DNA from: Flammeovirgaceae bacterium SG7u.111
GTDB lineage: Bacteria > Bacteroidota > Bacteroidia > Cytophagales > Flammeovirgaceae
Assembly (NCBI GenBank): GCA_034044135.1
Contig: CP139021.1
Coordinates: 6,796,001-6,860,000 of the forward strand
Direction: 5' to 3'
DNA: 64,000 bases
The position numbers and the translations under genes are program-made. This document shows, one piece after another, positions 8,456-46,581 of the stretch (position 1 is its first letter; every line of letters starts with the position of its first letter). The notes beneath the pieces were generated by a model. It was not told the origin of the DNA and did no database searches. It saw only the letters and a program-made list of their open reading frames with translations.

Positions 8456-9694
8456 ATGAAGGAATACTTAACATTATCAGAAACAGCCAAGCTCGTAGGC
8501 AAAAGCAAAGAAACGCTACGAAGATGGGACAAAGAAGGGATTTTAAATGCTGTCCGAGAACCTGTTTCAAATTACCGAGTTTATAAAAAATCGGATGTTC
8601 AAACACTTCTAGGCTCTTTGTTTGACGATGATGCCGAAGATGACGTTTCCAACTATGTCGAGCCTGAAAATCAATACACTGTCCTTGAACTTTTTGCAGG
8701 AGCTGGAGGCTTAGCTATCGGTCTGGAAAAAGCAGGATTGACATGCACCGCGCTGAACGAAATAGACAAATGGGCTTGCCAAACGCTCAGAACCAACAGA
8801 CCTCACTGGAATGTATTAGAAGGCGATATTAAAGACTTCGACTTTTCCGAATATCACAACAAAATAGATGTGGTCACTGGCGGGTTTCCTTGCCAAGCAT
8901 TTAGCTATGCAGGAAAAAAGCTGGGATTAAACGATGCCCGCGGAACCTTATTTTATGAATTCGCAAGAGTTGTCCAGCAAGTCAATCCCGCCATTTGTAT
9001 AGGGGAAAATGTACGAGGGTTGTTAAGCCACGAAAAAGGGAAAACCTTGCAAGGCATGATTTCCATCCTCGATGAAATCGGGTACAATGTCGTTCCCGTT
9101 CAAGTACTAAAAGCAATCCATTACCGAGTTCCTCAAAAACGTGAGCGTTTGATTTTAGTAGGGGTAAGAAAAGATATTGATATAGAATTCGAGTACCCCA
9201 CTCCTCACAAGAAAATATACAACCTTGCCGATGCCCTTAAAAAAGGTGAATTATTTGACTCGAATGTACCCACTTCGGCAGGAGCAAAATACCCAGAATA
9301 CAAGAAACAAGTCCTTGACCTAGTACCTCCAAAAGGCTACTGGAGAGATTTACCCCTCGACATCCAAAAGGAATACATGGGAAGAAGTTTTTATTTAGGA
9401 GGAGGAAAAACGGGAATGGCAAGAAGAATTGGTTGGGATGAGCCTTCACTCACACTTACATGCAGCCCAGCCCAAAAGCAAACCGAGCGCTGCCACCCAG
9501 ACGAAACCAGGCCCTTCACCGTACGGGAATATGCACGAATCCAAACCTTTCCAGATGAATGGCATTTTGAAGGCTCTGTAGCCCAACAGTACAAGCAAAT
9601 TGGCAATGCAGTCCCTGTTAACTTAGGACAGGAAGTTGGCTATGCCATCGTTAAGTTTTTGAATACTTATTATAGCTTGTCAAAGCCTAAATAG
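8456..9694 (+). CDS. MerR-type HTH / DNA (cytosine-5) methyltransferase fusion
   Basis: A 412-residue protein. Residues 1-52 form a MerR-like winged helix (LTLSETAKLVGKSKETLRRWDKEG), then an acidic linker, then a full C5-methyltransferase: motif I LELFAGAGG (78-85), catalytic Cys146 in GFPCQ, motif VI Glu184 in ENV, motif VIII around QKRERLILVG, a target-recognition region about 245-330, and motifs IX/X ending IGNAVPVN. It methylates C5 of cytosine in the sequence cut by its partner nuclease. That partner converges from the opposite strand and belongs to the Eco47II family, whose members cut GGNCC, so GGNCC or a variant is the likely target. N-terminal HTH domains in C5 methyltransferases are known to act as transcription regulators (for example M.EcoRII, M.SsoII). 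A MerR-type one suggests the same role here. Confidence 0.92.
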   Translation: MKEYLTLSETAKLVGKSKETLRRWDKEGILNAVREPVSNYRVYKKSDVQTLLGSLFDDDAEDDVSNYVEPENQYTVLELFAGAGGLAIGLEKAGLTCTALNEIDKWACQTLRTNRPHWNVLEGDIKDFDFSEYHNKIDVVTGGFPCQAFSYAGKKLGLNDARGTLFYEFARVVQQVNPAICIGENVRGLLSHEKGKTLQGMISILDEIGYNVVPVQVLKAIHYRVPQKRERLILVGVRKDIDIEFEYPTPHKKIYNLADALKKGELFDSNVPTSAGAKYPEYKKQVLDLVPPKGYWRDLPLDIQKEYMGRSFYLGGGKTGMARRIGWDEPSLTLTCSPAQKQTERCHPDETRPFTVREYARIQTFPDEWHFEGSVAQQYKQIGNAVPVNLGQEVGYAIVKFLNTYYSLSKPK

Positions 9695-11779: not shown

Positions 11780-14700
11780 TCACTCCTTCACCACCTTCCG
11801 CTGCACTTGAAAACTTCCGCTCTTCAGCAGCAAAATGTACGTGCCCGAGACAAATTTGGCAAGGTCAAAAGAGATTTCCTCCTCGCTTCCAAGTTGCTTA
11901 CTCAACAATAATTTGCCATTCAGGTCAATCAATTGAAACTCTACTTTTTTGTTGGAAACTGGCAAAGTAACACTCACCTTCAACTGGTCAGAAGTTGGGT
12001 TAGGCCAAACTTCCCAAGCTGCTTCCAGCAACGCCTCATCCAGGCCCGTGACCAGTTCCACCGGGGAAATGGAAGCACAGCCCGAGCTATTGAACACCTC
12101 TACTTGGTAGCCAGCCGTACCCTCGGAAAAATCCGTAAGCTGCGTTTCATATTCCCGTTGCGTAGCCCCAGAAATACTTTTTCCATCCAAGTACCACTGA
12201 TAAGCCGCACCCTCTATAGTCGAGCGCAATTGTACCATTTTCGCCTTCGCATCTTCTTTTACCAACACCTCAATTTGAGGCAAAGCAGGGGCTTCACTCA
12301 CCGCAAGCATCGAAGTAGCAACACTCGCCACACAACCGTTTTCATCTCGTACAAAGGCAGTCAAACTTGTTGCTCCTAAGTTTTCAAAAACACCATCCGT
12401 TTGGAATGTGCTGCTATCCACGCTAAACGAATAACCTCCCGAACCTCCTGTTGCTTCCAAAGCTAGCAGACCGGTTTGATCCCCTTCACAGGTTGGAGCA
12501 ACTTGCTCTTTAATGGTTAGTATCAGCTCATCAGGCCCTTCAATTCTCACCGCTTCCCTAGCCACATACCCAGTAGCCGAAATGCTTCGTACTGAAACCG
12601 TATAGGTTCCCGTATCTAGCATTTCGTACAGCGCTACATTGCTAAAGGGTTTTCCATCCAAACTAAACTCCAGATCGCCAGCGCCACCCGTTGCCGAAAC
12701 CTCAATAGTTCCATCAGCAGCACCGTGGCAGCTAACATCTGTTTTTTGGATTGAGATTTTTATTTCTTCAATCGATTTGAGCGAGGTTTCGGCTGAAAAC
12801 ACTCCACATGCTCCGCCATTTATCGCTGCTAAGGAATAAGAAACTAACGACTCCCCAAAAACTGACTTGGGAAGTACCAACTCAGCTTCAGTTTCTCCAA
12901 CCATCGCCAAACCATCTTTGTACCACTGCAAAGAATCGGCTGCAACCTCGCTTGAAAGCTTCAGTTCTTCGCTAATTCCTGGGATTCCTTCCACCAAAAC
13001 CACGGGTTGAGCAGGCATTTCAATCTTACTTTTTAGAGCAACGACAAGCCCCACTTCACAGCCGTTGCTATCTCTCACCACAAATAAATACTCACCCTCG
13101 GTCAGGTTTAGAAAAGCAGGATCTTCCTGAAAATCACTTCCATTTTTGCTGAAAAGATAAGGTTCAGTTCCGCCCGTAGCGGCCAAGCTCACCTCACCAT
13201 CAGTATTTCCTTCACATTGCAAACCGCTAGTTTCTGCTGAAAGCAAAAGCGGCTCGGGCTGGGAAATGGTTACAGAAACCGAATCGACATATTGAGGAAC
13301 TTCGGAGCTTCGCACATAGATTTTATAACTTCCCGAATCGAGCTGTTCAAACAAATTTATATTGGAAAAAGCTTCTTCATCCAAACCAAACTCCAGCTCA
13401 CCTTCCCCGCCCGTAGCCAAAACCTCGACGGTTCCATCTACAGCACCGTGACAACTCACGTCTGTGTGTTGGGTTGAAATTTTTATTTCTTCAATTGCTT
13501 TGAGCGAAACGTTCTCTGAAAATACTCCACAAGCTCCGCCATTTATCGCTTCCAAGTAGTAAGAAGAAAGTATATCGGTAAAAGCGGATTTGGGGAGAAT
13601 CAACTCATTCGTTGTTTCATTTACTATCGCTATGCCATCCTTATACCACTGCAAAGCATCTGCTACCACCCCACTGTAAAGCTTCGTTTCCGCGCTGATT
13701 CCGGGAACTCCTTCTACCGAAACTGTGGGCTGTTCAGGAATCTTGAATTGATTGGAAAGCTGTACTTCAAGTTCAATTTCGCAATTATATGCATCGCTTA
13801 CGGTTACAAAATAAGTGCCTTCAGCCAGCCCTTCAAAGCTCGAATTTTCCGTTGGCGAGTCCGTACCCATTTTGAACAAGTAAGAACCTCCTCCTCCATT
13901 TGCTTCTACTTCAAAGCTTCCGTTTGTTTCACCTTCGCAAGTCGGATCTGTTTTGGATATGAGGGACACATTCAGCTCAACCGTGTTAGGATCACAGTCG
14001 TTGTCCAAGCCATCGCAAATCTCCGGTGCGCCCGGATAAACCGTAGCATTTTCATCATTGCAATCCGTATCATCAGACACAAACCCTTCTGGCTGGGAAC
14101 AAGCAAGGGTGTCCGCTGAAGGATCACCAAAGCCATCGCCATCCAGATCGGCAAACCAACGAGGGGCATCAGTTGCACTTTCATCTACTTGTCCATCGCA
14201 ATCATTATCTTTTCCATCGCAAATTTCTACAGCTCCGGGGTAAGTAGCCCCATCGGCATCGTCACAATCACCCGCTTGGGAGACATAACCTACCGGTTGC
14301 GCACATGCTTTTGTAGTTTGGAGCGAGTCCCCAAATCCATCGCCGTCTGAGTCCAAGTACCAAGTGGCCAAAAATTCTTCCCCCACGGCTACCTTGAAGC
14401 TTTTCATTTCTGCTTTATTTCCCGAAGGGTCGGTGGCAAAAACCATCACGGTTGTTTCGCCAAGGGGGAAATCATACGGAGATGAAATACTTATCGTATC
14501 GTCGCTTTCCTGTTTTATTTTGTATTGAAGAGGAATTGAATTTCCATCGCAAGCATCTGTAATCGATGCAAAAAAGCTCAAGGGCACCTTACACAAGCCT
14601 TCCGCATTTTGAGCAAAAACATCGGTGGGAACAGAAATGACAGGAGCAGTCGTATCTTTCACCGTTACAGAAAAGGACTTTATATCTGCCTCGTTTCCAG

Positions 14701-32065: not shown

Positions 32066-32097
32066 GGCACGAGCGAGACGCTCGCGCCAGCTTTTTT
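32066..32097 (+). terminator. GC-rich hairpin with T-run, likely pfkA terminator
   Basis: GGC/GCC outer and CGAGCG/CGCTCG inner pairs (32066-32088, one mismatch), a 3-base loop, then six T's at 32092-32097. The sequence looks like the GC-rich repeat words scattered in intergenic spaces of Bacteroidota and may be a dispersed repeat that also terminates. Confidence 0.6.
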
Positions 32098-35795: not shown

Positions 35796-36254
35796 ATGAG
35801 CCTTAAAGACAACCTAGAAAAGTATCAGCTTTCATTGCCCAATGTTTCAACTCCTGGGGGTAGTTATACCTCTGTAAATGTCAGAGGGAATATCGCATAT
35901 ATCGCTATCCAATTCCCCATACTAAATGAGGAGTTTTTGTACACAGGGCGATTAGGAGATGAGCTTACAACAGAGCAAGGCTATAAGGCAATGGAATTAT
36001 GCGCACTCAATGTTTTGGCACAGGTTGAAAACAAAATTGGGTTTGACAATATAGTAGGCCTCAACCATATTGATGCATATTTCCAATCGGGTAAGGATTG
36101 GGATGATTCGCCTAAAGTAGTCAATGGAGCCTCCGACTTATTCGTAAAAGTATTGGAAGAGAAAGGGCAACATTCGAGGGCTATTTTTGGTGTAGAAAAG
36201 CTACCAAGAAATTTTAGTGTTGGGCTTACTACTTCATTTACTACAATAGGCTAA
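35796..36254 (+). CDS. RidA/YjgF-family protein
   Basis: 152 residues, one YjgF/RidA (chorismate mutase-like) domain of the longer, endoribonuclease-like subgroup. It has SLPNVSTPGGSYTSVNVRGNIAYIA near the N-terminus and the conserved GVEKLPRNFSVGL near the C-terminus, where RidA enzymes place Arg. RidA proteins deaminate reactive enamine/imine intermediates, but this subgroup is often of unknown role. It is followed immediately by the 21-bp tandem repeat array. Confidence 0.85.
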   Translation: MSLKDNLEKYQLSLPNVSTPGGSYTSVNVRGNIAYIAIQFPILNEEFLYTGRLGDELTTEQGYKAMELCALNVLAQVENKIGFDNIVGLNHIDAYFQSGKDWDDSPKVVNGASDLFVKVLEEKGQHSRAIFGVEKLPRNFSVGLTTSFTTIG

Positions 36255-36259
36255 CGGTT

Positions 36260-36552
36260 TTACAGAAGGAGAGTAAAGACCTACAAAGTAAGTCCTCGGA
36301 CATACAGACTGAGCCAATAGAAGTACAGACTGAGTCCTTGGACGTACAGACCGAGTGAAAAGAAGTACAGACCGAGTCCTTGGACACACAGACCGAGTGA
36401 AAAGAAGTACAGACCGAGTCCTTGGACACACAGACCGAGTGAAAAGAAGTACAAACCGAGTCCTTGGACGCACAGACCGAGTGAAAAGAAGTACAAACCG
36501 AGCCGATGAACGAATAGACTGAGTGTAAAGACGTTTAGACGAGCAAAAAGAC
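36260..36552. repeat. Array of fourteen 21-bp tandem repeats
   Basis: Fourteen units of 21 bases (the last 20) run without gaps from 6 bases after the RidA-like stop. Even and odd units alternate: one variant is GTACAGACCGAGTCCTTGGAC, the other differs in the last eight bases (GAAAAGAA). This gives a 42-base higher-order period. Units at both ends are the most diverged and the middle ones nearly identical, as expected from slippage or unequal crossing over. No spacers, so not CRISPR. All minus-strand frames are open across it, which follows from the unit having no minus-strand stops and is not evidence of coding. Confidence 0.95.
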
Positions 36553-36794
36553 ATCAGTCATTACTGAATTTACAAAATAATCTTCTACATAGGATAACAA
36601 ACAGAGAATATGTTCCAAAATATAGCTTGGGCAATTTTCACATTATGTTAAATAGAAGCGTGGACTTATCTATCTTAATCTGGCAATTCAACGCATACCA
36701 CCCTTTGGAATTTCTAGTTTTGTCCCTACCTTCAAGATTTTATAATAGACCTATCTTAAAAGAAACATTACTTCAATACAAACCCAACAATAAC

Positions 36795-37813: not shown

Positions 37814-38551
37814 ATGAAAAAGACTCTCTCTCTCTCATTGTTCATGTCCATTCTTTTTCTTTTCTCTTGTAAGAAAGAAGAAAAAGCAGGCTTGGTAGAA
37901 GAAACAAAGACAATAGAAATTGATTCAGCCCAAGTGCAGGAAACCGAAACTGCTTCGGAACTCAACCAAGATTCCCTCGCCTATTGGAAGTCCATCGAAC
38001 TACTTTCAGACACGGCATTGGTGGATTTGAAAAAGCTACATCCTGCCTTTATTCTCGATGTGAAATATGCCACTACCGATAACTTCACCAAGCAGGTATT
38101 GTACGAATGTGAGAAATGTTTGCTTCGCAAAAAACCAGCCCTTGCCCTTATAGAAGCGGCGAAATTTTTCGAAGGAGAAGGCTACAAGGTAAAGCTCTTT
38201 GATACGTACCGACCAAACTTTATCCAGTGGAAAATGTGGGAGATCGTATCCGATCCACGCTATGTGGCTGATCCCGCCAAAGGCTCCATGCACAACCGTG
38301 GTGCTGCCGTAGACCTAAGCCTGACCGACACAGAAGGAAACGAACTGGAAATGGGCTCGCCTTACGATTTCTTCGGGCAAGTCTCCCACCACGCCTACCA
38401 AGACCTGCCCAAAGAGGTGTTGGAAAGGAGAATCTATCTCAAAGAAAGTCTAGCAAAATTCGGCTTCGACCCCATCACCTCCGAATGGTGGCACTACTCC
38501 TACCGAGATGGGCATTACAATATTTTGAATGAATCTTTTGAGTGTGAGTAG
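37814..38551 (+). CDS. D-alanyl-D-alanine dipeptidase, VanX/DdpX family, lipoprotein
   Basis: 245 residues. A lipoprotein signal (SILFLFSCKKEE) is followed by the M15D peptidase. Zinc ligands lie in SMHNRGAAVDL and SEWWHYSYRD, and the catalytic/base Glu is in the latter. It cleaves D-Ala-D-Ala, releasing D-Ala for reuse, and sits outside the cytoplasm, unlike VanX of the glycopeptide-resistance operon. No vanA/vanH genes are nearby, so it probably serves peptidoglycan turnover rather than resistance. It is followed by repeat copy 1. Confidence 0.9.
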   Translation: MKKTLSLSLFMSILFLFSCKKEEKAGLVEETKTIEIDSAQVQETETASELNQDSLAYWKSIELLSDTALVDLKKLHPAFILDVKYATTDNFTKQVLYECEKCLLRKKPALALIEAAKFFEGEGYKVKLFDTYRPNFIQWKMWEIVSDPRYVADPAKGSMHNRGAAVDLSLTDTEGNELEMGSPYDFFGQVSHHAYQDLPKEVLERRIYLKESLAKFGFDPITSEWWHYSYRDGHYNILNESFECE

Positions 38552-38595: not shown

Positions 38596-38696
38596 CTCTC
38601 GCTCGGCTCTGTCGAGTGAGGAATATTTTCGGGCGTCCTCGCCCAAGGTAGCCAGAGGCTACCAAAATAGTTGCCACTCGGCTGGAGCCGAGCGGC
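38596..38696 (+). repeat. 101-bp structured direct repeat, copy 1
   Basis: Copy 2 is at 39962-40062, the same length and direction with about six substitutions. It contains three hairpins in a row: GGGCG-TCCT-CGCCC, GGTAGCC-AGA-GGCTACC, and CTCGGC-TGGA-GCCGAG. The substitution in the second hairpin falls in the loop. It lies between the VanX-like gene and the lipoprotein gene. Confidence 0.9.
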
Positions 38697-38714
38697 TTGT
38701 AAATAATTTTAATT

Positions 38715-39920
38715 ATGAAAACCCATTTTTTAATATTTCTATTTTTAGCGATAACCCTTACAGGCTGTAAAAACGACTTTTACGGTAAGACTTGGATTCC
38801 TGTTTTTGTGGAGGAGGATGGAGAAAGCCTTGAACCCAAACTACTTGATGGGTACAACATTGGTTTCAATTTTAAAAATGATACAACTGCTGAATATCAT
38901 AATTTCAGAGGGAACTGGTTAGAGGAAGAGTCAATTGAATTCACTTCTGAAAAACAATTCAAACATATAAGCAAAAAGAATAAAGTCTACCTACATGATA
39001 TTCTTTTTCAGTCAAAAGATAGCTTAGTTATTCAATATCATTCTTCTACTTCTGATAGCAGTAATAGTTTCTTCATAAGATATATCCCTATCCCTCAATC
39101 AAAAATTTATTCTTCTACCGATGAAATGAAGTTTTTCTTACTGAACAATTATTGGATATATGAAATCGATAGCATGCATTATGAAGTAGAATTTAGTTTT
39201 AATAAAAGCATTAGTAAAGGCTATATAGATGCTTACGACACAGAGTATCAATGTACAGTCCATCAATATACAAATGGAAAATACCAAGAAACAATGAACT
39301 GGAATTGGAACTTAGTTCAAAATGGTGATACCTTCATTTTGCAAATAGGAGATATTTATAATCACTATTATACCTATGAAACGTTTTATATTACCTCAAT
39401 GACTGATAGTTCTTTAACTACTAGTGCTTGGTATAAGGGGAAAAAAGCAAATGTGACTTTCAAGCAGAAAACTTATCAATCAGACTATTGGAATAGCGTA
39501 CGGCTTATTCTAACTTCAAAGAGATGGAATATTTCAGAAGCTAAAATCATAGAAAATGAATTGGACCTTGGAACGATGTATGGACTCACTTCAATAAACC
39601 CTGATTTAACTTTAAAGGAGGATGATTTACATAGCAATATTTTAAGCTATAGATTTGACTCCAATAAAAGTTTTCAACTGTTAAAAGGAGGAACAATTAT
39701 TCAAGAGGGTTCTTGGCATTTATACCCTAACGGTACAATATTATCACTTTACAACCATCGCAAGGTTGATAATGAGTACTTTTACTCCATTCCAAATACA
39801 CATATCAATATTTTGAGCATTGAGGATAGTATTCTTAAGATTCGCAAATGGGAAGAGTTTTATTTAAACAACCAAGATTACTCCTTTATTTCTAAAGAAA
39901 CCATCCAAGTCTGGAAGTAA
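38715..39920 (+). CDS. AT-rich hypothetical lipoprotein flanked by 101-bp direct repeats
   Basis: 401 residues with a lipobox (LFLAITLTGC) and a mature part rich in Asn, Ser, Tyr and Thr. It has duplicated-looking segments beginning with NYWIYEIDSMHYEVEF and RWNISEAKIIENELDL, in which Trp/Gly-rich strand pairs suggest lipocalin-like or tandem beta modules. No named family. Its codons are clearly more AT-rich than those of the VanX-like gene before it, and a 101-bp repeat lies at each end. It may have been acquired or moved as a unit with these repeats. Confidence 0.6.
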   Translation: MKTHFLIFLFLAITLTGCKNDFYGKTWIPVFVEEDGESLEPKLLDGYNIGFNFKNDTTAEYHNFRGNWLEEESIEFTSEKQFKHISKKNKVYLHDILFQSKDSLVIQYHSSTSDSSNSFFIRYIPIPQSKIYSSTDEMKFFLLNNYWIYEIDSMHYEVEFSFNKSISKGYIDAYDTEYQCTVHQYTNGKYQETMNWNWNLVQNGDTFILQIGDIYNHYYTYETFYITSMTDSSLTTSAWYKGKKANVTFKQKTYQSDYWNSVRLILTSKRWNISEAKIIENELDLGTMYGLTSINPDLTLKEDDLHSNILSYRFDSNKSFQLLKGGTIIQEGSWHLYPNGTILSLYNHRKVDNEYFYSIPNTHINILSIEDSILKIRKWEEFYLNNQDYSFISKETIQVWK

Positions 39921-39961
39921 TCAAATCACGCTTTGCCCCCAAGCTTGGACTTAAGAATCAT

Positions 39962-40062
39962 CTCTCGCTCGACCCTGCCAAGTGAGGAATATTTTCGGGC
40001 GTCCTCGCCCAAGGTAGCCTGAGGCTACCGAAATAGTTGCCACTCGGCTGGAGCCGAGCGGC
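39962..40062 (+). repeat. 101-bp structured direct repeat, copy 2
   Basis: It matches copy 1 at 38596-38696, with six or so differences clustered in the first 20 bases. All three hairpins remain intact. It ends 20 bases before the stop codon of the convergent MFS gene. Confidence 0.9.
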
Positions 40063-40081: not shown

Positions 40082-41416
40082 TCACACAACTGCTTTTGCC
40101 CCCTTCCTCATAAAGCCCATGTTGGCTGTTGCCAAGAAGGCTGCCCCGAGGATAAAGAAGATGATCATGGCTAAGAGGCTGTTACGCATGCTGCCTGTGA
40201 GTTGTTCTATGAAGCCGTAGGAGAAGGTACCGATGACGATGGCTACTTTTTCGGTGATGTCGTAGAAGCTAAAGAAAGAGGCGGTGTCTTTGGAGGTTTC
40301 GGGGATAAGCTTGGAGTAGGTGGAGCGGGAAAGTGATTGTACCCCTCCCATCACAAAACCTAGCACAGCTGCCAATATGAAAAATTGGTATTCCTCTTGG
40401 AGTAGATATCCTCCTACACAAACGCCCATCCAAATCAACACGGCGAGCATCAGGGAAAATTTGTTGCCTTTTTTCTCAGAAATAAAAGCAAAAACATACG
40501 CCCCTAGCACGGCTACTATTTGCAAGAGCAAGACCACCATAATGAGCTTGTCACTTTGCATATTTATTTCGGCTTCGGCAAAAAGTGGAGCGAGCAACAT
40601 AACGGTTTGTACACCCATGCTGTAGAAGAAAAAGGCGGTAAGAAAACGGATGGAAACATGTCGGCTTCTGAGCTGAGCCAGTACTTCTGTAAGCTCTTCA
40701 AAGCCTTTGCCTATTACTTTTTTGGAAAGTTTATTCCCCGTTGGTCTGTCTTTCAGATACTTAAAAGCAATGTGGGAAAACAAAAACCACCAAATGCCTA
40801 CTTGTAAGAAAGCCAAGCGAGTAGCCTCACCCGTACTCGCTATCCCAAACGCTTCATAATTCATGATCAAGACCAAATTGGCTACCAACAAAATTACGCT
40901 ACCGATGTAGCCCATGGAAAAGCCCTTGGCACTAACCCTATCAAGTCGATCTGGAGTAGCTATTTCAGGCAGAAAGGCATTGTAGAACACCAATGCACCG
41001 GCATAGCCCACACTAGCAAGCACAGCACAGGTGATACCATATTCGATATTCCCCCCGTGGAAAAAATAAAGCGCCAAGCAAGCCAATGAACCTGTGTAGG
41101 TAAAAAGCCGCATGAAAAACTTTTTCCTTCCACTATAATCGGCTATGCCCGAAAGAATGGGCGATAAGAAAACGATGATGAGGAAGGAGAAAGAAATGGC
41201 ATAGGTATAGAGCACCGTGTTTTTAATCTCCAAACCAAAGAAATTGAGCATATCCCCACCAAAGGCTTCCCTGGTAGTTGCGCTATAATAAACGGGGAAG
41301 ATTGCCGCGGTGATAGTAAGGTTGTATACCGAATTGGACCAATCGTAAGAACACCACGCGTTTATGGTTTTCTTATCGTTGAGTGGCATTGCCGCAGTTT
41401 CAGAGGGTTGGTTCAC
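40082..41416 (-). CDS. MFS transporter, UMF1 family
   Basis: 444 residues with about 12 membrane helices. The N-terminal INAWCSYDWSNSVYNLTITAAIFPVYY is the UMF1 (Atg22-like) signature, and the later YAGALVFYNAFLPEIA and GGVQSLSRSTYSKLIP are characteristic of bacterial members. It exports an unknown solute, perhaps amino acids. It is on the same strand as the adenosyltransferase but separated by a hairpin terminator. Confidence 0.88.
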   Translation of the reverse strand: MNQPSETAAMPLNDKKTINAWCSYDWSNSVYNLTITAAIFPVYYSATTREAFGGDMLNFFGLEIKNTVLYTYAISFSFLIIVFLSPILSGIADYSGRKKFFMRLFTYTGSLACLALYFFHGGNIEYGITCAVLASVGYAGALVFYNAFLPEIATPDRLDRVSAKGFSMGYIGSVILLVANLVLIMNYEAFGIASTGEATRLAFLQVGIWWFLFSHIAFKYLKDRPTGNKLSKKVIGKGFEELTEVLAQLRSRHVSIRFLTAFFFYSMGVQTVMLLAPLFAEAEINMQSDKLIMVVLLLQIVAVLGAYVFAFISEKKGNKFSLMLAVLIWMGVCVGGYLLQEEYQFFILAAVLGFVMGGVQSLSRSTYSKLIPETSKDTASFFSFYDITEKVAIVIGTFSYGFIEQLTGSMRNSLLAMIIFFILGAAFLATANMGFMRKGAKAVV

Positions 41417-46315: not shown

Positions 46316-46349
46316 AATTTCCCTGCCTTCCACCCCGAAAGCAATAAAC

Positions 46350-46545
46350 ATGAAGTGCTGGGTAGGTCTTCTGGCTTCTCCTAAAATTGGCAGGTCTTCC
46401 CATCCCATTGCTTAAAATTGGAACAGTGACTTGGGTCTTTGCCAACTCCTTTTGGTGGAGTTACAGCAGCGGGGGCTGCACCGGAATCTAACCGGTTTCC
46501 CTTTTTAAGCTTTCTCTTGTGTTTGAAGAGAAAGCCACCGCAACA
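46350..46545 (-). ncRNA. Cobalamin (B12) riboswitch
   Basis: On the minus strand, in order: the start near 46545, GGTGGC, GGGAAACCGGT and ATTCCGGTGCAG (about 46480-46503), then CCCCCGCTGCTGTAA, AAGACC..GTCACTG, and the B12 box AGCCAGAAGACCTACC (46361-46376). These are the conserved segments of the adenosylcobalamin class. High B12 should repress the binding protein and TonB receptor. The box ends 45 bases before the ATG, suggesting control of translation or early termination. Confidence 0.95.
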
Positions 46546-46551
46546 CAGGGG

Positions 46552-46581
46552 CAAATGTAGATATCCTTTTGGATTATTCAA
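46552..46581 (-). promoter_or_regulatory. Promoter of the riboswitch-controlled B12 operon
   Basis: On the minus strand TTG (46579-46581) and TACATTTG (46552-46559) are separated by exactly 19 bases. This is an excellent Bacteroidota promoter, just before the riboswitch. Confidence 0.75.

Follow-up and report, generated by a model that had tools for sequence, protein, structure and literature searches.

An AT-rich lipoprotein-like gene between two copies of a dispersed palindromic repeat resembling REP doublets in Flammeovirgaceae bacterium SG7u.111

The lipoprotein locus

The window analysed here is a stretch of 64,000 nucleotides from Flammeovirgaceae bacterium SG7u.111 (contig CP139021.1, positions 6,796,001 to 6,860,000). 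Two copies of a 101-nt palindromic element lie on its + strand, copy 1 at 38596..38696 and copy 2 at 39962..40062. The copies are 94% identical, with 95 of 101 bases the same and 6 different (94.06%). The start-to-start distance is 1366, and the repeat comparison gave 93% identity over 104 nt. An earlier note on this DNA had described two direct 101-bp repeats of equal length and about 94% identity. This description was borne out, and the repeats fold beyond their shuffles.

Between the copies, a single ORF has 70 aa or more, at 38715..39920 (+). It encodes 401 aa, has a GC content of 31.4%, and was named a lipoprotein by eye on account of a signal stretch and the motif LTGC. The protein had no match in Pfam or NCBIfam. 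The upstream neighbour (37814..38551, +) matches Pfam Peptidase_M15 (D-Ala-D-Ala dipeptidase), and the convergent downstream neighbour (40082..41416, −) matches Pfam ATG22/MFS_1. Both neighbours have a GC content of 45.3%, which confirms that the sole gene between the repeats is AT-rich and unlike those around it. Of the 50 ORFs in the window with 150 aa or more, 2 had a GC content below 33%. At about 36234-36554 of the window, a short motif is repeated in the reverse-strand translations, likely a tandem repeat after a gene.

Homologues of the lipoprotein were detected in 3 of 57 relatives (G011, G003, and G009), and the gene is single-copy in the host. None of the three loci adjoins homologues of the window neighbours, and no flanking repeat of at least 30 nt was found there besides the tandem genes of G011. 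These two tandem homologues (L116:4754-7173) are 32% and 25% identical to the window protein and have no element nearby. The vicinity of the transporter gene was compared at five family loci and at 23 named loci, some ending at contig ends, and no other window gene was found. Because the transporter was the only window gene present at those loci, they offered no empty site for comparison.

Hairpin structure of the element

Four local hairpins were found in the folds of each repeat, rather than the three counted in the earlier note. In a full copy, they follow the order H1, AT-rich spacer, H2, H3, AT-rich spacer, H4. By hand-counted coordinates, H1 of copy 1 (38598..38620) has a CTC foot, a G.T pair, and a CTCGG stem, and is the inverted counterpart of H4. 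H2 (38631..38644) pairs GGGCG with CGCCC, H3 (38647..38663) reads GGTAGCC AGA GGCTACC, and H4 (38673..38696) has a GCC foot, an A.C mismatch, and a CTCGG stem. In copy 2, also counted by hand, H1 (39964..39986) carries four substitutions, H3 (40013..40029) has a single loop change from A to T, and H2 (39997..40010) and H4 (40039..40062) have the same letters as in copy 1.

H1 and H4 are thus inverted copies of one hairpin type, which enclose the smaller H2 and H3. The type consists of a 3-bp foot, a mismatch, and a CTCGG/CCGAG stem. The mismatch is A.C in H4 and G.T in H1, the latter being A.C on the opposite strand. Because H1 and H4 are inverted copies, an alternative fold of the whole element is a single long arm from which H2 and H3 project. 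The folding analysis covered six copies.

As DNA, copy 1 had a folding z of −8.1 against shuffles. The RNA folding z values against shuffles were −7.0 and −4.5 for the + strand and −5.7 and −4.9 for the − strand. The RNA energy was −59.8 kcal/mol for copy 1 and −50.1 kcal/mol for copy 2. Four of the six differences between the copies fall in H1, at element positions 11, 13, 17, and 19, and by hand pairing they cost copy 2 one Watson-Crick pair and one G.T pair. The claim that the differences leave the stems intact therefore holds for H2, H3, and H4 and fails for H1, which is weakened in copy 2.

The structure was compared across the 25 copies found in the genome. The A.C mismatch was present in 19/19 parsed H4 (5 copies were unparsed and 1 misparse was dropped), and the mirror G.T was present in 15/17 parsed H1 (6 unparsed, 2 misparses dropped). 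A single conserved A.C mismatch can also be explained by plain common descent. The 3-bp foot of H4, read off by eye, was fully Watson-Crick in 10/19 parsed copies. H2 was parsed in 19 copies (6 unparsed) and occurs as GGGCG/CGCCC or GAGCG/CGCTC; the second pair is G-C in 10 copies, whereas 9 have A-T. Elsewhere in H2, pairing is lost in some copies, such as those at 2655729 and 7116583 and all three of locus L045. Since the H4 feet are often imperfect and H2 pairs are broken, the structure is not strictly kept.

Distribution in the genome and in relatives

BLAST of the 7.7-Mb host genome placed the element family at 25 positions (E ≤ 0.001; 37/37 candidates scored), so the suggestion of a dispersed repeat is supported. 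By model extents, 20 of the 25 places are at least 85 nt long. The covariance model gave at least 33 matches on both strands at 21 of the BLAST places, and no place beyond them among the 150 of 3103 candidates scored. A DNA search of the 57 relatives returned a single match of 29 bases at 90% identity in G046, which belongs to the same order. Exact pattern scans found 0 matches in genome contigs, where the pattern fits only 9/25 of the family's own copies, and 0 in viral contigs, where it fits only 10/25; near-host records were possibly left out of these scans. Our literature search, which was not aimed at sequences, found no account of the 101-nt family or of the integron-like sites described below. 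Judged from these sequence searches, the family is small and restricted to the host lineage.

The copies are mostly extragenic. Fourteen of the 25 are clear of any ORF of at least 60 aa, 2 overlap a long ORF at its edge, 6 are within ORFs of 60–79 aa, and 3 are within ORFs of 146–217 aa that we judged spurious. Genes assigned to a family contain no copy, apart from the edge overlaps with the 2 long ORFs. Inspection of the copies by eye revealed neither a target-site duplication nor a fixed target.

The earlier note had also considered the repeats as RNA elements placed after genes. In that case, the copies would be transcribed, and their hairpins would end, stabilise, or process transcripts. 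The placement allows it: the flanking genes (mechanical ORFs of at least 130 aa) are unidirectional at 12 copies, convergent at 10, and divergent at 3, so 22/25 intervals would suit such a role. The stable RNA folds and the second pair of H2, which swaps between G-C and A-T without breaking in the 19 parsed copies, point the same way. Both terminator-like sites near the lipoprotein gene fall in copy 1, but two sites are no clear excess over the shuffle mean of 1.0 (sd 0.9), and the intrinsic terminator was rejected on these numbers. Moreover, the copies occur on both strands relative to genes. They match no Rfam family at the gathering score, which also led us to reject a known structured RNA. 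From sequence and predicted folding, a function as RNA after genes seems doubtful. The window's only Rfam match is a cobalamin riboswitch (RF00174, 89.6 bits) at 46344-46558 (−).

Clustered copies and the genes between them

Eight adjacent gaps were shorter than 3 kb, against a mean of 0.23 under random placement; 0/20,000 random sets reached 8, and the maximum was 4. The neighbours are on the same strand at 7/8 of these short gaps. Altogether, 14 copies form six groups, and 11/25 are solitary. The nearest relative of a clustered copy was in its own group for 8/11 copies, compared with a shuffle mean of 0.75 (0/5000 shuffles reached 8). This test covered 11 near-full-length copies of five groups; it omitted the sixth group, in which one partner is a 48-nt fragment, and the 60-nt third copy of L043. 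As the clustered copies are mostly sisters, local duplication or conversion is indicated rather than independent arrival.

Five genes were found between clustered copies. The lipoprotein gene (31.4% GC) lies in the window group. Group L043 holds a SUKH_6-like gene (31.6% GC; Pfam 23.2 bits, below the cut-off of 27) and a DUF2310 gene (30.4% GC), and L045 holds a DUF6119/TIGR04141 'sporadically distributed' gene (32.5% GC). At L044:7063-11305, an XrtN-system VIT protein gene (45.2% GC) stands beside exosortase N, with an element on each side of the VIT gene. Groups L046 and L047 have no convincing gene between copies; a 146-aa ORF in L046 and a 217-aa ORF spanning two copies in L045 were set aside as bracketed genes. 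Larger repeated non-coding blocks, seen by eye, carry the element and extra hairpins around the DUF6119 gene (L045, about 8850-9400 and 11830-12240).

The GC content was below 33% in 4/5 bracketed genes and in 6/182 other ORFs of at least 150 aa in the copy regions (Fisher P = 2e-5), a local test in which the cut was picked post hoc and the regions were picked around copies. With AT-rich genes this frequent between sister copies, one may ask whether the repeats just mark permissive spots or help foreign genes in and out. The XrtN-system VIT gene is the natural partner of the adjoining exosortase N. Of the stretches from three relatives, two have both genes side by side, and the third is cut off by a contig end. 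Because the repeats of L044 enclose this resident gene of normal GC content, a bracket alone is no proof of a mobile cassette.

The sister copies and the AT-rich character of 4/5 genes agree with the earlier suggestion that the lipoprotein gene was caught by recombination, whereas the VIT gene, the 11/25 unclustered copies, and the lack of an empty site tell against it. Capture of the gene is compatible with the data and plausible, and it is unproven. The further proposal of a cassette that can be excised or exchanged is possible and not established, as the analysis turned up neither an empty site nor an excision product nor a dedicated recombinase. The earlier note had named two findings that would speak against a cassette, many copies with no gene pairs between them and the same lipoprotein at this place in all relatives. 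Many copies are indeed solitary, but homologues of the lipoprotein occur in only 3/57 relatives and in other contexts.

Integron-like insertion sites

At L043:8550-10830 (G000:C1:1788550-1790830), a conserved stretch of about 180 bases comes after each element and occurs three times with 91% identity. The stretch ends with ATGTT or ATATT, and a different gene starts beyond it. Such integron-like sites were found at L043, L143-L149, and L153-L155. Related sites occur without the 101-nt element, and the site at L043 is a sequence separate from it. The genes after the sites are single and mostly AT-rich-looking. At 7/13 sites, the 11 bases from GTT onwards recur as their reverse complement, with up to 2 mismatches, close to where the next gene stops, while the control gave matching ends in 3/156 mismatched site-gene pairings; 6/13 true sites had no match. 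The controlled count leaves out the L153 site for lack of an ORF (uncontrolled 8/14). Recurring reverse-complement ends are the pattern of integron cassettes.

The sites at L154 and L155 lie just past pieces of a tyrosine recombinase ORF, and the L153 site faces an intact recombinase. The L153 recombinase scored 237.7 bits with NF040815 ('site-specific tyrosine recombinase/integron integrase'; cut-off 220). With TIGR02249, it matched only profile positions 2-180 and 235-315, without positions 181-234. True integron integrases are defined by an IntI-specific additional domain, according to PMC9668308, and we infer that the missing stretch corresponds to this domain. Nothing was found when one integron-like site was used as the query against 17 family relatives.

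We also weighed whether the 101-nt repeats themselves are attC-like sites, that is, recombination sites folded from single-stranded DNA, with the lipoprotein gene as a gene cassette. The long imperfect hairpin fold suits such a site, and the array-like L043 locus, where single accessory genes (SUKH-like, DUF2310) lie between folded repeats, resembles integron cassette arrays. Unlike in such arrays, the element does not have attC ends: by eye, the 25 copies share no common RYYYAAC/GTTRRRY ends, and in a few just the 3′ end is GTTGRGC-like. All 14 matches to the integron-integrase profile TIGR02249 stayed below its cut-off of 265; the intact one scored 231.3. The gene boundaries at L043 fall about 180 bases past the element, at the other site, and a pattern scan of the window for integron-like sites gave one unrelated match and none at the lipoprotein gene. 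The ends and the absence of IntI led us to reject the element as an integron attC, and the broader attC-like reading is very improbable. The integron-like system is separate from the 101-nt repeat, yet two of the four AT-rich genes between copies are attributable to it. These sites may be a more unusual lead than the repeats.

Comparison with REP sequences and Y1 transposases

In PMC3733652, REPs are mostly, though not all, sorted by GTAG or CGTC tags, and they form inverted dimers with structured spacers at mainly unidirectional or convergent positions. The same text reports CGTC repeats from five phyla including Bacteroidetes, and REP-like palindromes mainly from Proteobacteria. PMC6006769 describes transposase subclasses of Bacteroidetes, one with atypical flanking structures, and PMC2817692 reports two inverted REPs around transposase genes in every case.

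Measured against BIMEs and REPINs as described in PMC3733652 and PMC6006769, the 101-nt family likewise consists of dispersed extragenic palindromes, paired in inverted orientation and able to fold as one larger hairpin. A structured spacer, present in some BIMEs and REPINs, and the preference for unidirectional and convergent intervals are also shared. In contrast, the outer hairpins carry no unpaired GTAG or CGTC tag at their ends. Their feet are CTC/GAG and GCC/GGC, and GTAG and CGTC are present only inside H3 and H2. The element also differs in its two extra inner hairpins, its low copy number, and the lack of an adjoining transposase. The host genome has 17 matches to PF01797 (Y1 transposase), and 0 copies were found within 1.5 kb of them (element model R1). 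Copies flanking a Y1 gene, as in RAYT-mobilised REPINs, were therefore absent from the 1.5-kb flanks of all 17 loci. Because no Y1 gene is nearby and no end tag is present, we filed the family under dispersed extragenic palindromes and claim no cognate transposase.

Two Y1 proteins were tested with NCBIfam. The one at L042 (G000:C1:770819-771511) is a REP-associated tyrosine transposase (NF047646, 101.8 bits, cut-off 80), and the one at L038 is IS200-like. Just downstream of the L042 transposase lies a hairpin, GGC-A-stem-C-GCC, that shares its foot and its A.C mismatch with H4. A search of the genome for the palindrome AGCGAGACGCT gave 24 exact matches, and the reversed control gave 0. Three matches lie beside the L042 transposase, and six lie in element-family copies, where one falls 5 bases outside the extent matched by BLAST. 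The L042 unit thus resembles the window bracket in its single gene amid hairpin repeats, its foot-plus-A.C design, and the shared AGCGAGACGCT core. It differs in that the window bracket holds a lipoprotein gene and in the main stem, which is CTCGG in the element and CGAGCG/CAAGCG at L042. The small four-hairpin family shares its genome with a true REP-associated transposase bearing similarly designed hairpins.

Near-identical direct hairpin repeats were present on both sides of 4/5 examined Y1 genes and absent at L037. The flanking repeats measured 110 nt with 85% identity at L036, 93 nt with 94% identity and a spacing of 788 at L038, 34–53 nt with 87–94% identity at L039, and 54 nt with 89% identity at L042, where the upstream repeat overlaps the predicted N-terminus. 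This arrangement resembles the lipoprotein bracket, with a transposase inside instead.

Paired elements might also be the ends of a composite passenger unit, in which a Y1 transposase or a host recombinase would move element-gene-element or a circle with one element and the gene, and AT-rich genes would be captured and exchanged as cassettes. Same-strand sister pairs and the GC content of 30–33% in 4/5 bracketed genes, against 6/182 other ORFs, speak for such a unit, as do the repeats around 4/5 Y1 genes. However, the bracketed XrtN-VIT gene is GC-normal and stands beside exosortase N in relatives too, the separate integron-like site explains two of the four AT-rich genes, the lipoprotein gene is single-copy in the host, and 2/6 clusters lack a convincing gene. 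A passenger unit seems unlikely.

Proposed origin of the bracket

We consider it probable that the 101-nt repeats are small, lineage-restricted dispersed extragenic palindromes that work like a REP doublet (BIME/REPIN), with the lipoprotein gene probably acquired. The copies would have spread as non-autonomous elements by means of a Y1 transposase, REP-associated or IS200-like, acting on hairpins in single-stranded DNA, and they may now be decaying. The sister relationship suggests local duplication, short-range hopping, or gene conversion as the source of the local pairs. The lipoprotein gene, probably an accessory gene, may have entered between or with the local pair by homologous recombination at the repeats. 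The bracket would also permit its loss or exchange by homologous recombination, whereas no result obtained here supports a dedicated excision mechanism. A further observation counts against the REP reading, since AT-richness in 4/5 bracketed genes is not predicted by a plain REP model. A combined model, in which REP-like doublets serve as passenger-unit ends around AT-rich genes and form, with the integron-like site, a gene-exchange platform without a canonical integrase, is quite unlikely.

A second palindrome family

Eight of the 24 matches of the palindrome core lie inside the exact 23-mer GGCACGAGCGAGACGCTCGCGCC, which represents a second palindrome family. Its copies were found at loci L181, L191, L193, L194, L197-L199, and L201, and the window copy is located at 32066-32088. 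A close variant of GGCACGAGCGAGACGCTCGCGCC lies just downstream of the L042 transposase gene (G000:C1:770649-770813).
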